Shown here one piece after another: positions 1,655-11,144 of a stretch of 64,000 nucleotides of DNA. This DNA is from an uncultured Saprospiraceae bacterium. GTDB taxonomy: Bacteria > Bacteroidota > Bacteroidia > Chitinophagales > Saprospiraceae. Positions within the stretch are counted from its first letter, which is position 1. The number at the start of each line of letters is the position of its first letter. The position numbers and the translations under genes are program-made. The stretch is from positions 124,001 to 188,000 of the forward strand of contig CALLPI010000001.1 of the NCBI GenBank assembly GCA_938015595.1. Reading direction: 5' to 3'. Under the pieces are notes generated by a model, which searched no databases, was not told the DNA's origin, and saw nothing but the letters and a program-made list of their open reading frames with translations.

Positions 1655-2188
1655 CTAAGACTTCTCCCCTATGAAATAATCCTCCTTGTGTTTGAACAGC
1701 ACATTGAAGGTGGTAAGACTGCCGTATATTTTGGTAATGTACTGCTGTAGGTTTACCTTTTCTTCGTCGTTGAGATGGCTGGCATTGATGCGCTGCTCCA
1801 TGACGCGCAGGCGGTCGCGGGTCATCACAATTTTGTGGAAGAAAGTTTCGATGGGCACTTCCTTTTCCTTAAGCCCTGGGTCACCAGGGCGTAGAATCAT
1901 AACGCCGCCCTTCCAGCGGTCGCCAAGGGGCACGTCTTCCTGGAGGGCATTGAAATTGCGCAGGATTTTGATCAGGGAGCGCTCTGCTTCGGTGTAGGTA
2001 ATGGCCTCCTGGGTAGGGATGGCTTCTATTACTTCCCACTTGTCGTATTCTTTACCTACTTGTTTGATGCCGTAGAGCATAAAAGCCACTTCATAGGCAG
2101 CAGCATGCAGGCGTATGATGACGCCGTCGCCATAGGCTGGATGCCGCACTCTGGAGCCTACGCCCATTAGTGATTTGGTATCTGTCAT
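1655..2188 (-). CDS. Conserved hypothetical protein with Tudor/SH3-like N-terminus
   Basis: This is a soluble 177-residue protein with no signal peptide or membrane segment. Residues 9-30 (VGSRVRHPAYGDGVII) resemble the small beta-barrel (Tudor/CarD-like) found at the C-terminus of UvrD/PcrA helicases and in RNA-polymerase-binding proteins, followed by a charged helical region. That similarity is my inference from the 'G-x-x-V-x-H-P-x-x-G-x-G' pattern. It has its own near-ideal promoter (TTTG-N19-TACTTTTG). I do not recognise a named family and assign no function. The 207 bp between it and the sugar kinase hold no gene I can support. Confidence 0.8.
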   Translation of the reverse strand: MTDTKSLMGVGSRVRHPAYGDGVIIRLHAAAYEVAFMLYGIKQVGKEYDKWEVIEAIPTQEAITYTEAERSLIKILRNFNALQEDVPLGDRWKGGVMILRPGDPGLKEKEVPIETFFHKIVMTRDRLRVMEQRINASHLNDEEKVNLQQYITKIYGSLTTFNVLFKHKEDYFIGEKS

Positions 2189-2236
2189 GGTATGCGAATG
2201 TGTACTTTTTTATACAAAAACTGAAGGTTGATGGAG

Positions 2237-2267
2237 CAAAAGTAGAGAAATTACAAGAGTAGACAAA
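2237..2267 (-). promoter_or_regulatory. Canonical Bacteroidota promoter
   Basis: On the minus strand the -33 element TTTG (2264-2267) and the -7 element TACTTTTG (2237-2244) are separated by exactly 19 bases, matching the sigma-ABfr consensus TTTG-N19-TAnnTTTG. Transcription would start near 2230 and run into the gene starting at 2188, leaving a leader of about 40 nt. Confidence 0.75.
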
Positions 2268-2314
2268 CAAGATGGCCGGTAGCTGAGGCGGCTGAATACA
2301 GGCTTGACGGCTGT

Positions 2315-3730
2315 TCAATTGGGTTGGTAATCCAGCTCTCCTTCCGAATGGGCAATAATAGTGGCCACGGCCATGTCGCCGGTGACGTTGGCCACAGTGC
2401 GGCACATGTCGAGGATGCGGTCTACCGGGAAGATGATGGCGATCCAAGCAGGATTTAGCCCCACGGACTGCAACACTATGATCATCATAATCAAGCCGGC
2501 ACTAGGTACGGCTGCCGAGCCTATGGAAGCCAAGGTAGCCGTGAGCACGATGGTGAGTTGCTGCGTCAGGGTGAGGTTCACCAGGTGCAACTGTGCCAGA
2601 AATACTACTGCCACTGCCTGGTATAGGCTAGTGCCATCCATATTGACCGTAGCGCCGATGGGCAGTACGAAGTTGGTTACAGTTTTGGACACACCCAGGT
2701 TGTCATGCACGCATTCCATCGTCACTGGTAGAGTGGCAGCGCTGGAGCTGGTGCTGAAGGCCAGAAACTGCGCCGGGCTGATGCGCCGAAAGAAAGCACC
2801 GTAGGAAATGCGCCGCACAAACACCAGGATGAGCGTAGGATAAAAAACAGCCACTAGCACAAATAGCCCGAATACCAGTACCAGAGAATAGGACAGCAGG
2901 CTTTTGAAGATTTCCAGCGCTTCGTCGAGCGTATTGGCCATTTTGGCTAGTACCCCAGCCATGAGGGCAAACACAAAAAACGGGGCGGCCTCCATGATCC
3001 ACTCCACCATTTTGAGAAACACTGCATTGGCGCCGTCCACTACATCGAGTACGGGCTTGACTAGGTCTCTGGGCAGAAACATAGTGACAATGCCGAAGAA
3101 CAAGGCAAAAAAGATGACCTGGAGCATGTTTTTGCCATCGGACAGCGCGGCAAAGATGTTGTCGGGCACTATGTCCACAAAGAATTGCAGCGGGCCAGAG
3201 GAGGTTACTGCCTCGGCAGCTTTCAGGCGTTTTTCTATGGTTTCGTTGCCGGCTTCTTGTTGCAACTGCTGCAGCGCCTCGCCAGCGTAGGCTGCGTAGC
3301 GGGGGTCCTTGCTGAAATTTTGGGCGTCGAGAATGCTTACGCCGGGTGTTTGCTGTACCCAGATTTCATACTTGATGCGGTTTTTGATACGCTGCTCTTC
3401 GGCGATGTACTTACCCGGCTGCAACACGTTGGCCAGCAATAGTCCTGTACTTACGGCAGTGACGGTGGTCAGTAGATAAGCCGCCAGCGTTTTGGCGCCC
3501 AGTCGCCCCAGTTTGGAGGGGTCGGGCAGGGTAGCAATGCCGCTGATAATAGAAAAGAGCACCAGAGGCACGGCAATGAACTTGAGCAAGCGAATGAATA
3601 TGGCGCCGAAGGGGTCTATCCAATTGAGCGTGAACTGATTCCAACCCCAGTGGATGGATACCAAAGAATACGCTATGCCGGCTACCAACCCCATAATAAT
3701 GCGCCAGTGCAGCGGGATGCGTTTTTTCAT
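2315..3730 (-). CDS. Dicarboxylate/amino acid:cation symporter (DAACS)
   Basis: This 471-residue polytopic inner-membrane protein belongs to the GltP/GltT/DctA family, which imports glutamate, aspartate or C4-dicarboxylates with Na+ or H+. Visible signatures are the serine-rich re-entrant loop (AFSTSSSAATLPVTMECV) and the motif ATVNMDGTSLYQAV in TM7. The start at 3730 (MKKRIPLHWRIIMGL) matches the usual family N-terminus. The frame stays open upstream but that extension shows no family similarity. A hydrophilic insertion of about 80 residues between TM3 and TM4 (around ISILDAQNFSKDPRYAAY) is typical of Bacteroidota members. It is divergent from accD. Substrate cannot be fixed by eye. Confidence 0.92.
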   Translation of the reverse strand: MKKRIPLHWRIIMGLVAGIAYSLVSIHWGWNQFTLNWIDPFGAIFIRLLKFIAVPLVLFSIISGIATLPDPSKLGRLGAKTLAAYLLTTVTAVSTGLLLANVLQPGKYIAEEQRIKNRIKYEIWVQQTPGVSILDAQNFSKDPRYAAYAGEALQQLQQEAGNETIEKRLKAAEAVTSSGPLQFFVDIVPDNIFAALSDGKNMLQVIFFALFFGIVTMFLPRDLVKPVLDVVDGANAVFLKMVEWIMEAAPFFVFALMAGVLAKMANTLDEALEIFKSLLSYSLVLVFGLFVLVAVFYPTLILVFVRRISYGAFFRRISPAQFLAFSTSSSAATLPVTMECVHDNLGVSKTVTNFVLPIGATVNMDGTSLYQAVAVVFLAQLHLVNLTLTQQLTIVLTATLASIGSAAVPSAGLIMMIIVLQSVGLNPAWIAIIFPVDRILDMCRTVANVTGDMAVATIIAHSEGELDYQPN

Positions 3731-3826
3731 ACTGCCGTGATTTTGGGTGCGAACAGGGGGGCAAGTTAGCCAATGCTGGGCAATTTCGGCCAAAAATATT
3801 GTTAGCGCGCTTTTCGGGCTTTTGCG

Positions 3827-3834
3827 TAACTTTG
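3827..3834 (+). promoter_or_regulatory. -7 box upstream of accD
   Basis: TAACTTTG is a perfect match to TAnnTTTG, 50 nt upstream of the accD ATG. I see no good TTTG at the expected -33 distance. Confidence 0.5.
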
Positions 3835-3883
3835 CATTCCCCTTATGTGCCTTTTTTTGTAAAGGGAAGAAAACCAAAGTAAT

Positions 3884-4780
3884 ATGGGTTGGTTCAAACG
3901 ACTCAAGGAAGGTATTCAAACCGCTACCCGCAACAAAAAGGAAGCGCCCGAAGGCCTGTGGTACCAGTGCAAACAGTGCAAGGCCACCTGTACCCGCAGA
4001 GAGCTGCGCGAGAACTTCCACAAATGCCCAAGTTGTAACTACCACGTGCGTATCGGCTCGCGCGATTACTTTGAGTTGCTCTTTGACACACAACCCGAAG
4101 AACTCTTCGGCGAGCTACGCTCTAAAGACATCCTCGGCTTTGTGGATCTCAAACCCTATGCTGACCGCTTGGCCGAAACCATGCGCAAAACTGAACTAAC
4201 CGACGCTATCACCGTAGCCAAAGGCAAAGTAAACAAGCGCCCCCTCGTGGTGGCGGCTATGGACTTCAATTTCATTGGCGGCTCCATGGGCTCCGTCATG
4301 GGCGAGAGAATCTCCCGCGCCGTAGATCACTGTCTGGAGCATCGCATCCCCCTGCTCATCATCTCCAAATCAGGCGGCGCGCGTATGATGGAATCAGCCT
4401 TCTCCCTCATGCAAATGGCCAAAACCTCTGCCAAACTTACCCTCATGGCTAAAGCCGGTATCCCCTACTTTTCCCTAATGACCGACCCTACCACCGGCGG
4501 CGTCACGGCATCCTTCGCTATGCTGGGTGACCTCAACTTCGCCGAACCCAACGCTCTCATCGGCTTTGCCGGGCCGCGCGTCATCAAGGAAACCATCAAA
4601 CGCGAACTACCTGAAGGCTTCCAAACCGCCGAGTCGCTCCTCGAAAATGGCTTTCTCGATTTCATCGTGGATCGCAAAGACCTCAAAGAGCGCATAAGTG
4701 ACTTGCTCACCCTCTTTGACAGCGCTGGTAATGGCGCCGTAGCTCAACCAATAGAGCAGGAGTCAGAAGAAGCCGGCTGA
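3884..4780 (+). CDS. accD: Acetyl-CoA carboxylase carboxyltransferase subunit beta
   Basis: This 298-residue protein is AccD, which with AccA transfers the carboxyl group from biotin carboxyl carrier protein to acetyl-CoA, the committed step of fatty acid synthesis. The N-terminal zinc ribbon is intact (Cys29/Cys32 and Cys48/Cys51), followed by the crotonase-like carboxyltransferase domain with SGGARMMESAFSLMQMAK and the oxyanion-hole glycine region TDPTTGGVTASFAMLGD. Length is normal for the family. AccA and the biotin subunits are not in this window. Its 3' end overlaps the convergent fkbM gene by 37 bp. Confidence 0.97.
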   Translation: MGWFKRLKEGIQTATRNKKEAPEGLWYQCKQCKATCTRRELRENFHKCPSCNYHVRIGSRDYFELLFDTQPEELFGELRSKDILGFVDLKPYADRLAETMRKTELTDAITVAKGKVNKRPLVVAAMDFNFIGGSMGSVMGERISRAVDHCLEHRIPLLIISKSGGARMMESAFSLMQMAKTSAKLTLMAKAGIPYFSLMTDPTTGGVTASFAMLGDLNFAEPNALIGFAGPRVIKETIKRELPEGFQTAESLLENGFLDFIVDRKDLKERISDLLTLFDSAGNGAVAQPIEQESEEAG

Positions 4781-7149: not shown

Positions 7150-7782
7150 TCAACTTCTCAATACAGCCCGCACCGGTACGCCCTCTAAATCGCGTACGCG
7201 CAGAGGCAGGCAGAGCAACTCGTAGCTGCCTTGCGCTGCATCTAGGAGATTCAGGCTCTCGAGGATAACCACCTCGCGCTCCAGCAATACCACGTGGGTA
7301 TCAAAGGGATCGTCGTATAGTTGGATAGAGTGGCAATCAATACCTACCAACCAGATGCCTCGCTGTACTACCCAATGAGCAGCATCCAGTGTGAGGGCGC
7401 AAAAGTCATAACGGAAAGGCTGGTCAAAATCTTTCCAGTAGCGAGAGTTATCTGTTTTGCACAGTAGGCGGTGCGTATCTTTGGGGATGCCAGCGGCTTC
7501 AAGGTCTTCGGCAGCAATGCACTTCTTGCCGGTAAAATCAGCTACCCAGCAGGGGCCGATGAGCTTGTCCAATGGAATTTCATCGGTGCTAGCACCTTTG
7601 GGTAGGAAGTGCAAAGGCGCGTCAATGTGCGTGCCGGAGTGCACGTCTATGTACAACTGGCTTACGTTGGCTGCATCACCGTCGGCCAGGTTCATCACGC
7701 GTTCAATGTGCACAGGCTTGCTGCCGGGCCATAAGGGCAGGGCCGGATGTAGTGGCACGGAGATGTCAATGAGTCTGCTCAT
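7150..7782 (-). CDS. Cyclase/kynurenine-formamidase-like metal hydrolase
   Basis: This 210-residue protein carries the signature HSGTHIDAPLHF at residues 48-59, matching the family's HxGTHxDxPxHF metal-binding motif (His48, His52, Asp54, His58). Members hydrolyse amides such as N-formylkynurenine or act on polyketide and isatin rings. The length and N-terminal strand (LIDISVPLHPALPLWPG) fit the KynB/isatin hydrolase group. The substrate is unknown. No other kynurenine-pathway genes are visible. Its start overlaps the stop of the TIR/TPR/SDR gene by 4 bp, implying translational coupling. Confidence 0.85.
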   Translation of the reverse strand: MSRLIDISVPLHPALPLWPGSKPVHIERVMNLADGDAANVSQLYIDVHSGTHIDAPLHFLPKGASTDEIPLDKLIGPCWVADFTGKKCIAAEDLEAAGIPKDTHRLLCKTDNSRYWKDFDQPFRYDFCALTLDAAHWVVQRGIWLVGIDCHSIQLYDDPFDTHVVLLEREVVILESLNLLDAAQGSYELLCLPLRVRDLEGVPVRAVLRS

Positions 7783-10304
7783 TGGGGGCGTCCGCTTCGG
7801 TCTATGAGCATGGCACTGGCCTGCTGCGTGCCGCCAAGCACGATGTCTAGTATGTCCACGTGTGGGGGGCGATTCATGATGAAGTAAATGGCCTCGGCCA
7901 CGTCGCGCGCGTGCAAGGGCTGAAAGTCTTCGTAGATTTTGGCTCGCTGGGCATCGCCGTCGAAGCGCACCAGGGCAAACTCGGTTTCTTCTACATGCGC
8001 CGGGCTGATCTGGCTAACGCGCACGTTGTGGGTGTAGAGGTCTTGGCGCATGGATTTGGTAAGGGCATCCACGGCAAACTTAGTGGCGCAATATACATTG
8101 CCCTTGGGGTAGGTTTCCTTGCCGGCGGTAGAGCACACATTGATGATGTGCCCGCTGCGGCGGGCTACCATAGCAGGCGCTACAGCGCGCGTCATATAGA
8201 GCAAGCCTTTGATGTTGGTGTCAATCATTTCGTCCCAGTGTTCGAGGTGGCCTTCATGTATGAGGTTGAGCCCTTTGGCTTTGCCAGCGTTGTTGATGAG
8301 TACATCAATAGTAGCCCATTCTGAGGGCAAGTTGCTGATAGCTTGCTGTACGGCTTGGGCATCGCGCACGTCCAGTACGAGTGTGAGTACTTGGGTGCCG
8401 TATTCGGTTGCTAAGTGTGCTTGGAGTTCTTGCAGACGTTCGGCGCGACGGCCAGCAAGAATGAGGCGATACCCCTGCTCGGCTAATAACAATGCCGTAG
8501 CGCGGCCAATGCCCGAGGTGGCGCCAGTGATGAGTACTGTCTGGTGGGGTGCAGATGCTTTGGCTTCCATGAGTTGCTGCAACTCTGCTTCGCGTTCGCG
8601 CAGAAGATTTTCCAGGCGGTTGAGGTTTTCGCGCATTTCGGCCAGGGCTGATTGCTCTCGCTCAATGATTTCCGAGGCTCTGGTGCTGCGCTGGTTGCGA
8701 TGGTACTCAAAGGCCATATCGTTTTGTGGCGTTTTTAGCTCCGGGTTGTTGATCACGGCTTGCTGGTAGGCATTCCAGGCAGCCTCGGCATCTTGGCGGC
8801 GGTGGTAGAGCAATGCCAGGTCGTACCAGGCAAAGGGGTGGCCAGGCTCGAGTTGGAGCACGCGGTGTAGGATATCTTCGGCCAGGCTCTCGCTGCCGGC
8901 GTCGTTGTGCAACAGCGCGAGTTGGTAATGGGCGTCGGCGTTAGAAGCGTCTAGTGCAACAGCTTTTTCAAAGGCCTGCATTGCTTCGGTCAGTTCCTGT
9001 GGATAATGCCCTTGCAGCACCATACCCAGGCGATACCAGGCAGCGGAGTGTTTGGGGTTCAGGTGCAGCACCTTCTGATAGCAGGCTCTGGCTTTGGCAA
9101 AGTCGCCTTGGTACTCAGCTAGTTCGCCCAGCAGGAAGCGAGCATCGGTATGGTCAGGGTGGCTGTTTAGCAAGATTTCCAATTGGCGGGCCGCTTCAGG
9201 CATTTCGCTACCGTGTTGCGTCAGCATCCAGGCATAGCGATAGCGCAGGGCGTCTTCGTTGGGGTGTTCGTCAATAGCCTGGGCCAGCATAGCCAGGGCG
9301 TCAGCTTGCTGCCCCGAAGCGGCCAGGTGCATGCTTTCGCGGAGCGTTTGTTCCACTTTGGCTTGTATGGCGGCGGGGTCAGGCGCAGGGGCTTCTGCTA
9401 TGGTTGACGCTTCGACTTCCGCCGGAGCGGCATCGGCTGCTGGGAAGGGGGAGGAAGGTGTCTCAAAGTACTGCTCCACATCATGGGCCAGGCGGCTGAG
9501 GTCTTCCTCCGCCAGGCGTATGTCATCGGGGGTGGGTTGCTGGAGCAAGTCCATGCCTGGTATATCTTGTAGGTTGATGTGCGGCTCGGAGATGAGTTCT
9601 TCCATTTGCGCCTCGCTGAGGGGTTGGGGTTCTGGTTCTTCATCTGGAGCGGTGGTTTGCTTCTCTACCACAGGGGGTGGGTTATCGGCTTGGGGTTCAA
9701 CTGCGGGCGTTACAAAAGAAGTATAGCGCGCATCGCCCATAAACTCGAAGAAGCGCTGGTAGTTATGCTGGTATAGTGCTGACCATTCCACGCATTCGGC
9801 GCTGCGCAGCATGCGTAAGAACTCACCAATTTCGGAGGAGATGTCGCGCATGATGCGCAGGTGAGCGTTGAATCCTTCTTCGTCAATACCTTCGAGGTGT
9901 CTTTTCTGTCGGCGCACATCTAGATAGCGGTCTTGCCAGTAGTTGATGTACTGGATGATGTCGCTCACGCGCTCAAAGTGGGTGGGCACTGAGCGCCAGG
10001 CGCCGGTTTGTTCGTCCTGCGCCACGCCATCGGCCACTATGGGCAAGATGCGGTTGAACTGATTTTGCAAAAATCGAAGTGCACCGGCCATGGCCGAGGT
10101 GGACTTGAGCAGGTTGTCGGTGATGAGCAGGACGATTTGCCCCGGTAGGGCATCCAGGCGTTCGAAGAGCGGGGTTTCCGGCGTATCTCTATGGCTCACA
10201 ACGCGCAGAAACTGATAATCGGTAGTCTGAAGGTGTTGTGTGATTTGATCGGCCAGCGCAGCATTTTCAGCGCTGTAAGCCAAGATGACTTGTGGTTGGC
10301 TCAT
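7779..10304 (-). CDS. TIR-like / TPR / short-chain dehydrogenase fusion protein
   Basis: This single 841-residue frame joins three modules. Residues 1-120 look like a TIR/flavodoxin-like fold (VILAYSAENAALADQITQHL, then IVLLITDNLLKSTSAMAG), but the usual S-x-x-W-C-x-x-E catalytic stretch is absent. A helical part and a Pro/Glu-rich linker lead to about six TPR units (roughly 310-550), then a Glu/Arg-rich coiled coil (550-583). Residues 585-841 are a complete classical SDR: TGATSGIG (593-600), NNAG (671-674), Ser725, Tyr738 and Lys742, closest in feel to YdfG-type 3-hydroxyacid dehydrogenases. No stop or frameshift separates the modules. An internal ATG at 8570 could in principle make a free SDR. 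Its function is unknown. Confidence 0.85.
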   Translation of the reverse strand: MSQPQVILAYSAENAALADQITQHLQTTDYQFLRVVSHRDTPETPLFERLDALPGQIVLLITDNLLKSTSAMAGALRFLQNQFNRILPIVADGVAQDEQTGAWRSVPTHFERVSDIIQYINYWQDRYLDVRRQKRHLEGIDEEGFNAHLRIMRDISSEIGEFLRMLRSAECVEWSALYQHNYQRFFEFMGDARYTSFVTPAVEPQADNPPPVVEKQTTAPDEEPEPQPLSEAQMEELISEPHINLQDIPGMDLLQQPTPDDIRLAEEDLSRLAHDVEQYFETPSSPFPAADAAPAEVEASTIAEAPAPDPAAIQAKVEQTLRESMHLAASGQQADALAMLAQAIDEHPNEDALRYRYAWMLTQHGSEMPEAARQLEILLNSHPDHTDARFLLGELAEYQGDFAKARACYQKVLHLNPKHSAAWYRLGMVLQGHYPQELTEAMQAFEKAVALDASNADAHYQLALLHNDAGSESLAEDILHRVLQLEPGHPFAWYDLALLYHRRQDAEAAWNAYQQAVINNPELKTPQNDMAFEYHRNQRSTRASEIIEREQSALAEMRENLNRLENLLREREAELQQLMEAKASAPHQTVLITGATSGIGRATALLLAEQGYRLILAGRRAERLQELQAHLATEYGTQVLTLVLDVRDAQAVQQAISNLPSEWATIDVLINNAGKAKGLNLIHEGHLEHWDEMIDTNIKGLLYMTRAVAPAMVARRSGHIINVCSTAGKETYPKGNVYCATKFAVDALTKSMRQDLYTHNVRVSQISPAHVEETEFALVRFDGDAQRAKIYEDFQPLHARDVAEAIYFIMNRPPHVDILDIVLGGTQQASAMLIDRSGRPQ

Positions 10305-10307
10305 GTT

Positions 10308-11144
10308 TTATTGGTTGTTTTGTTGGTTTTTACCGGCTTGCCAAAGTGTTTTTACAGTATGGTTGATGCGCAATATACCGGCTATTTGGCCATTATCGCC
10401 CATTTTGCCTTCCATTAATACGGCATCCTTTCCGTCGAAAGAGGCTAAGTAGAGTTTTTTCGCCTGTACAGTGCCCTGTAGATATTCATAACGCTTGCCT
10501 TGCCATTCTAATATGCCAGACAGGTAATTTTCGCGCTGCGCTAGTCGTAGTATAGCATGCGAAGGAGCTTCTTCGCTCAGTTCCATGCCAACTTTCAAGT
10601 GCCAGGTGCCGCTCAAGTTGGCTGCGGGCGCTTTTTTCAGCGTAGTGAACAGATAGTCCTGCCCCTGCCGTGCTATCAGGGGGATGGATTGCATCTGCCC
10701 CTGGGTGTCCTGGTAAAACCAATGGCCCTCGAGAATTTTTTCTTCAAATACGCCGCGCAGGTAATTGGCCGTGCCCGGAAGGCGAATGGTCAGGGTGTCT
10801 TTGGCGGTGGCATAGTCTCTGCCCACGGTGTAATCCGAAAGCACAAGCGAGCTTGCGCCTAAAGACAAAGCAATGTAGAAACTATCAGGATGAGGGTAAG
10901 TCACTGAGAACAGGAAGGGCAGCTCTCCCTGGCTGACATCATCGTATTCCATACCCAGCTTTTCGGGCAGCGGCTTGCCTTTGGGATTGGGTGAGACAAA
11001 TACAGGCTCTATCTGGAGCACGCCGCGCCAGGTGCCTGGGGGCATTCCGGTGTAAGTAGTATCCATAACCAGACAGCCTGGGGCCAGCATTGCCCATAGC
11101 AGTGTAAAAATCGAAATTACCCGAACGGCATGCGGCATGACCAT
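10308..11144 (-). CDS. Hypothetical lipoprotein
   Basis: This 278-residue protein has a hydrophobic N-terminus ending in a lipobox (LAPGC), so it is probably lipid-anchored in the periplasm or outer membrane. The mature part repeats a beta-rich 'G.WRGVL / GTW.LKVG / YLRG.FE / YLSGILEW' pattern, which suggests two related beta modules. I recall a similar N-terminal region ahead of the thioredoxin domain in some Bacteroidota TlpA-like proteins, but no thioredoxin CxxC domain is present here. It starts a tight operon: the next gene starts 3 bp after its stop. Its role is unknown. Confidence 0.75.
   Translation of the reverse strand: MVMPHAVRVISIFTLLWAMLAPGCLVMDTTYTGMPPGTWRGVLQIEPVFVSPNPKGKPLPEKLGMEYDDVSQGELPFLFSVTYPHPDSFYIALSLGASSLVLSDYTVGRDYATAKDTLTIRLPGTANYLRGVFEEKILEGHWFYQDTQGQMQSIPLIARQGQDYLFTTLKKAPAANLSGTWHLKVGMELSEEAPSHAILRLAQRENYLSGILEWQGKRYEYLQGTVQAKKLYLASFDGKDAVLMEGKMGDNGQIAGILRINHTVKTLWQAGKNQQNNQ

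Follow-up and report, generated by a model that had tools for sequence, protein, structure and literature searches.

What is a TIR domain doing in the same reading frame as a metabolic reductase? In bacteria such domains are familiar above all as immune effectors that consume NAD, and the question is raised by one gene in a 64,000-nucleotide stretch of DNA (the window) from an uncultured Saprospiraceae bacterium (assembly GCA_938015595.1, contig CALLPI010000001.1, positions 124,001 to 188,000). The gene joins a TIR-like N-terminus, a linker, tetratricopeptide repeats (TPRs), a long helix and a short-chain dehydrogenase/reductase (SDR). Our best reading, from the comparison of sequences, is that a once catalytic TIR-TPR module has been domesticated to scaffold or regulate a core reductase, which probably depends on NADP. 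More specifically, we lean towards a lineage-specific fusion of TIR-TPR and SDR that would have been captured in place and inherited vertically, with the TIR head serving for assembly or ligand binding and the SDR working as an active reductase.

From TIR to SDR in one frame

The fusion is an uninterrupted open reading frame of 841 amino acids (aa) plus stop, running from 10304 to 7779 on the minus strand; read on the plus strand, the interval 7779–10304 contains many stops. The initial annotation had described one unbroken 841-codon frame and named no strand, and the frame is as described. Its parts, with model confidence given as the predicted local distance difference test (pLDDT), are as follows.

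7779–10304, minus strand: the whole TIR-like/linker/TPR/long helix/SDR fusion gene, 841 aa, read from 10304 down
9720–10304, minus strand: TIR fold (residues 1–136) and helical extension (137–195), with TIR matches in the PDB, AlphaFold2 pLDDT 94.7 and Gly74 at the catalytic-Glu position
9387–9707, minus strand: disordered Pro/Glu-rich linker, residues about 200–306, pLDDT mostly <50
8709–9377, minus strand: about six TPRs, residues 310–532, from Pfam TPR models and six modelled helix pairs
8559–8702, minus strand: single long helix, possible coiled coil, residues 535–582, at a low pLDDT of 50–71
7782–8543, minus strand: YdfG-like SDR, residues 588–841, with Ser725, Tyr738 and Lys742, from Pfam, NCBIfam and PDB relatives

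The first point to establish is whether the N-terminus is a TIR domain. Taken alone, it matched PF13676 (TIR_2) below the cut-off (E 0.0025, 18.8 bits, cut-off 28), and the fusion was absent from the matches when its own genome was searched with PF13676. Among 23 homologous N-termini, 21 matched TIR_2 at E values of up to 1, the best being 3e-7, and when a profile of the 23 was compared with PDB sequences the best match was to MyD88 TIR chains (E 1.5e-5). Structure prediction, proposed as a check in the initial annotation, gave the confident model listed above, for which TIR domains were the best structural matches. The top row by VIA-align was Paracoccus PdTIR (3h16_D; Z 10.3, root-mean-square deviation (rmsd) 2.7, 121 aligned), followed by Brucella TcpB (Z 10.2, rmsd 2.8, 125 aligned), RPS4/RRS1 (10.0, 3.4, 148) and BtTir (9.9, 3.0, 125). 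Because receiver domains also reach a Z of about 7 against this model, the assignment leans on sequence and fold together; Foldseek alone returned one PDB match under E 0.001 (flax TIR), with many non-TIR rows beneath it. We conclude from sequence and model that the N-terminus belongs to the TIR domain superfamily, in line with the first description of it as TIR-like. Tyr119 and Trp123 are invariant in the N-terminal alignment, and both lie in helix 113–136, away from the Glu site.

At the other end of the protein, the SDR is complete. PF00106 matches residues 588–776 with 194 bits (588–829 is the SDR extent by Pfam and NCBIfam), and TGATSGIG, NNAG, Ser725, Tyr738 and Lys742 are all present, as in a classical SDR and as the initial annotation had listed them. 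The catalytic residues are kept in nearly all fused SDRs (Ser in 73 of 73, Tyr in 72 of 73, Lys in 73 of 73). The best NCBIfam match is the YdfG model NF007829, at 242 bits against an equivalog cut-off of 411, with a lone SDR of the family (L133) scoring 237 bits, and the closest solved structures are PDB 3asu, 2nwq and yeast YMR226C (3rku). After the second strand, Arg619 is found in 73 of 73 fused rows and Arg620 in 71 of 73, a pair which we take to suit NADP. The SDR probably works as a reductase that uses NADP(H) and acts on small hydroxy or oxo acids; we infer the cofactor from the Arg pair and the substrate class from the YdfG relatives.

Several Pfam TPR models score above cut-off in the middle of the protein, and the full-length model contains six TPR helix pairs over residues 310–519 plus one short helix, in keeping with the six or so repeats first counted. 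In that model (pLDDT 79, predicted template modelling score 0.37), where the placement of the domains relative to each other is unreliable, the Pro/Glu-rich linker recognised at the outset comes out as disordered over 200–306. The coiled coil proposed for the next segment stood as far as a single long helix is concerned, but at its low pLDDT it is only a possible coiled coil. The TIR and TPR parts have 34–36% mean pairwise identity across many genera. The linker has 20.6% over 20 rows, and the long helix, of variable length, has 17.8%. A linker motif, D-[IVL]-P-[GDE], was found in 31 of 64 rows and is therefore not family-wide.

A family of fusions and its catalytic position

A search with the window N-terminus gave matches in 24 of 60 relatives and in four of 296 genomes of a phylum-wide draw, the window's own genome being counted in both. 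The fourth phylum-draw match (L052, 8284–9513, plus strand) is a Schlafen/AlbA-TIR protein of another family in the class, not the fusion, and was omitted from the alignments. We fetched 22 of the 23 matches besides the window, leaving out a 119-aa frame at a contig end (G306); TIR, TPR and SDR share one frame in 20 of the 22, and the other two are cut by contig ends. When the 23-row profile was run against 298 genomes of the order, 59 matched, of which 52 did so at 2.4e-18 or better, all of them in the window's family. A wider set came from a scan of GTDB contigs, in which the best 80 of 100 relatives were kept; all counts over 80 loci refer to these, and several assemblies are common to this set and the relatives. 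The titles among the best 80 are mostly Saprospiraceae, with Phaeodactylibacter, Lewinella, Flavilitoribacter and some unplaced Chitinophagales, Bacteroidota and ‘bacterium’ entries. Named isolates with a family member are Lewinella cohaerens, Phaeodactylibacter xiamenensis, Phaeodactylibacter luteus and Flavilitoribacter nigricans.

At these loci the three domains share one frame in 63 of 80, are cut by contig ends in 10, and differ in seven. Four of the seven are split genes; in the others a TIR gene adjoins a TPR-SDR gene (L103), the TPRs fall below threshold (L089) or the SDR is missing (L108). A further member, L144, has TIR and SDR and no detected TPRs. Since the same domain order recurs in many genomes, a chance join or an assembly error can be rejected.

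We then turn to the residue on which NAD+ cleavage would depend. In the window copy, the catalytic Glu of the S-x-x-C-x-x-E stretch is Gly74, which bears out the initial remark that the glutamate stretch is lacking, and NAD+ cleavage by this TIR domain is unlikely because the Glu is gone. Across 92 aligned TIR rows, Glu occupies the position in 15, made up of all six unfused relatives and nine of the 86 family rows (which include one duplicate, L153 being identical to L126); the remaining 77 family rows have G, Q, R, N, D, K, H and others. Homology between these six unfused relatives and the family is clear (HHalign probability 98.9, E 1.8e-17). Six further unfused relatives carry the Glu in five cases, the sixth (L172) being without the whole stretch, so that 11 of the 12 unfused relatives among the order-wide profile matches keep it. 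One of the first six is a TIR-TPR protein from the same order as the window genome (L146). One viral contig holds a distant TIR relative (L167), Glu-bearing and with a similar SDNYLKSRNCMFE stretch, which would fit an origin of the family among defence-type TIRs. Unfused TIR proteins in the window's family (L147–L150) have Glu, a probable membrane segment and a C-terminal domain, for which a likeness to conjugation TraM is only a guess.

Seven of the nine Glu-bearing family rows, together with one Asp row, form one clade in the TIR tree (98*), a tree that gave long-branch warnings. The early branching of this clade is only apparent, because three Glu-less rows (L144, L116 and L108) also branch early. 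The best reading of this pattern is that the family TIR domain descends from catalytic-type TIRs and has mostly lost the catalytic Glu since. Because the NAD-destroying residue is lost in most copies, the domain has the look of an immune component put to new use in controlling or positioning an enzyme. The loss thus supports the earlier suggestion that the TIR-like part may be a scaffold or sensor rather than an NADase.

A different reading, which we regard as possible though doubtful, is that the head still binds nucleotides or acts as an NADase through other residues, and so gates the SDR directly by NAD(P) status. The TIR fold is indeed kept with high model confidence, and the fused partner is a dinucleotide enzyme. 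However, the many residue types found at the Glu position are what would be expected of a released active site, and the two invariant residues lie in helix 113–136 and not at that site.

How the genes lie at the locus

The neighbours that matter here are the following.

10308–11144, minus strand: upstream lipoprotein-like gene, 278 aa, a conserved neighbour, here without the C-terminal thioredoxin-like part
7150–7782, minus strand: cyclase/arylformamidase-like gene, whose start overlaps the fusion stop by 4 bases
1655–2188, minus strand: 177-aa protein, no Pfam family above cut-off, weak UvrD-tudor match

In the window, three bases separate the stop codon of the lipoprotein-like gene from the fusion ATG. 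The lipoprotein-like gene is present in 73 of the 80 loci, and in 66 of the 73 loci with room (seven without 1.3 kilobases (kb) upstream being omitted) it ends ≤500 bases upstream on the same strand. A search with only the SDR part gave matches at E≤1e-40 in 51 of 60 relatives, 48 of them with a single match and three with two. Within the family the SDR either belongs to a long frame or, in 11 genomes, stands alone as a short one. In 10 of these 11 genomes (L133–L140, L142 and L143) the lipoprotein-like gene comes immediately before the lone SDR. Because the upstream gene is the same, the TIR-TPR part sits in place between these two genes. The lipoprotein-like gene was not found by the same models in four outgroup-family loci.

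A third arrangement is seen in one clade of four loci, where lipoprotein, TIR-TPR and SDR are three successive genes and the long helix is absent. From the TIR-TPR stop codon to the first possible SDR start there are 8–11 bases, and the SDR lies in a different frame; the change of frame and the missing helix argue against sequencing error. Both the SDR tree (91–94) and the TIR tree (99*) place the four loci within the fused rows, and the split therefore represents fission. The quick SDR tree, from which pieces under 200 aa or 200 bits were left out, does not separate lone from fused rows, and trees that group the lone rows, or the fused with the split rows, had better likelihoods. For this reason we rely on its branching only for the split clade, whose placing the TIR tree repeats. 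A single clade of fused and split rows is not rejected (approximately unbiased test, p-AU 0.966), and the clade is not thereby shown.

These observations suggest how the fusion may have arisen and how it may work. A TIR-TPR module would have been captured between the lipoprotein-like gene and the mostly single-copy YdfG-like SDR gene of Saprospiraceae, and the fusion then passed on vertically. The TIR domain, its Glu mostly lost, would most likely act as a head for assembly or ligand binding; a client protein may be bound by the TPR arm, and the flexible linker could let head and arm position or gate the SDR.

Another reading is neutral accretion, in which the TIR-TPR arm was fused by chance and tolerated, and the SDR works like its lone orthologue. 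Lone SDRs manage without the arm at the same locus, the long helix and linker are variable, and one clade has undergone fission. Against this, many genera retain the TIR and TPR parts, at the identities given above and with no change at Tyr119 or Trp123 in the aligned rows, and in the clade that underwent fission the TIR-TPR gene still adjoins the SDR gene. We therefore consider neutral accretion improbable.

The upstream partner itself varies in length. Long copies are of about 440 aa, and the motif WCPNC occurs in 59 of 60 copies of 430–470 aa. The two long copies that were scanned gave C-terminal AhpC-TSA/Redoxin Pfam matches, and one of them had sub-threshold matches to the DsbE and TlpA models. 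Members of the window's genus have a gene made up of the N-terminal part only (271–289 aa), and short complete frames also occur in L059, L066, L090 and L103. A crude lipobox pattern is satisfied in 40 of 60 copies. If this lipid signal is real the lipoprotein would lie outside the cytoplasm, and would therefore be a functional, not a physical, partner of the fusion.

The downstream gene matches PF04199 with 95 bits and TIGR03035 with 158 bits against a cut-off of 223, and the genome contains a tryptophan dioxygenase, a kynureninase and two PF04199 genes. Among the loci searched, an arylformamidase-like gene is found at this place only in the window's genus. It is for that reason outside the conserved unit, and a nicotinamide theme by way of this gene is ruled out as part of it.

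Further upstream (54 of the 80 loci have 6.2 kb or more) we found the 177-aa protein in 43 of 80, a probable dicarboxylate/amino-acid symporter in 35, accD in 22 and probably hemE in 21, where the names symporter, accD and hemE are read from the sequences and are not database matches. In the window, the order is rearranged: the 177-aa protein, the symporter and accD lie at 1655–4780, beyond the 3' side of the unit, with a probable flippase and a methyltransferase gene (names again read from sequence) in between. Such housekeeping-type genes recur as chromosomal neighbours in many homologue loci. A PADLOC scan of the fusion and three neighbours gave one weak match, of a PrimPol model to the TPR/long-helix region (E 1.7e-4, 18.4 bits), and none for the three neighbour proteins. 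The fusion N-terminus had no match in the plasmid collections and none in the phage collections. The defence-island setting that the initial annotation had raised for the homologues is not supported by these observations, and the locus looks more like a fixed chromosomal place.

It is very unlikely, then, that the fusion is an anti-phage effector, whose TIR domain would consume NAD+ or produce an ADP-ribose signal while its SDR monitored redox state or replenished nucleotides: the catalytic type of the unfused relatives, the related Glu-bearing TIR on a viral contig and the Glu kept in nine family rows speak for it, but the loss of Glu in the window and 77 of 86 rows, the recurring housekeeping-type neighbours and the PADLOC, plasmid and phage searches leave it little support. 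Elsewhere on the same contig, at 88467–100055, about 24–36 kb before the window, there are two other TIR proteins (L002 and L004); the first, as read from its sequence, combines a TIR with repeats, a probable membrane segment and a part resembling a formylglycine enzyme.

What the fusion means and what it resembles

Several observations weigh against the preferred reading, that of a TIR-TPR module domesticated as a scaffold or regulator of the reductase. Whether TIR-TPR was gained or lost is judged from four outgroup rows and from quick trees of weak resolution, and a single clade of the lone rows is equally compatible with the data (p-AU 0.954, the clade again not being shown thereby). One lone SDR, L141, has no lipoprotein-like neighbour, and L108 is a TIR-TPR protein without a detected SDR. 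Thioredoxin-like chemistry is not essential to the unit, since the window's genus, and perhaps a few others, are without that part of the lipoprotein-like gene. Given a score so far from the YdfG cut-off, the substrate is not fixed by the match. Finally, with Glu retained in nine of the 86 TIR rows, of which seven fall in one clade, catalysis may persist in some members.

A more specific proposal, which we put forward only tentatively, is that the TIR head switches or clusters an NADP-dependent SDR through self-assembly or nucleotide binding, beside a thioredoxin-like lipoprotein gene, and that the Glu-bearing, apparently early-branching clade represents the catalytic ancestor. On this proposal, if true, a redox switch of metabolism would have been made out of an immune part.

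The interest lies in the link between TIR-TPR and a metabolic reductase that one locus shows throughout a bacterial family, with unfused, split and fused states all surviving there. With the catalytic Glu mainly in one clade and lost elsewhere, it may offer a natural series for testing how an immune enzyme domain turns into a regulatory or scaffold part.

The initial annotation knew of no described system with the order TIR-TPR-SDR, and we likewise found in the literature searched (mostly without subscription papers) no description of a TIR-SDR fusion, its placement or the series of states. Its components have clear counterparts. Group 6 bacterial TIRs, mainly actinobacterial, have an N-terminal TIR followed by TPRs (PMC7075850), the same order as in the fusion, which adds a C-terminal SDR; the word ‘dehydrogenase’ is absent from the text of that paper. 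The YdfG/YMR226C SDRs (3asu, 2nwq, 3rku) resemble the fusion SDR over about 236–245 residues, with Ser-Tyr-Lys and a [TS]EF-x-x-VR[FY] stretch, but the fusion scores 242 against the cut-off of 411 and bears the N-terminal TIR-TPR arm. E. coli YdfG is named a 3-hydroxy acid dehydrogenase and is used with malonic semialdehyde for 3-hydroxypropionic acid (PMC12455653). TlpA/DsbE-type thiol-disulfide proteins are like the product of the upstream gene in its AhpC-TSA/Redoxin part and WCPNC, but that product is longer by an N-terminal region of about 280 residues, and the window copy is that region alone. Non-enzymatic TIR scaffolds are also known (PMC7282519). One such scaffold, MyD88, which the N-terminal profile matched best among PDB sequences, has the TIR fold without an NADase role; in the fusion, by contrast, the TIR is joined to a metabolic enzyme, and its scaffold role is a putative one. 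TIR-TPR proteins, YdfG-group SDRs and non-enzymatic TIR scaffolds were thus already known, whereas no account of their combination was found in the literature searched.

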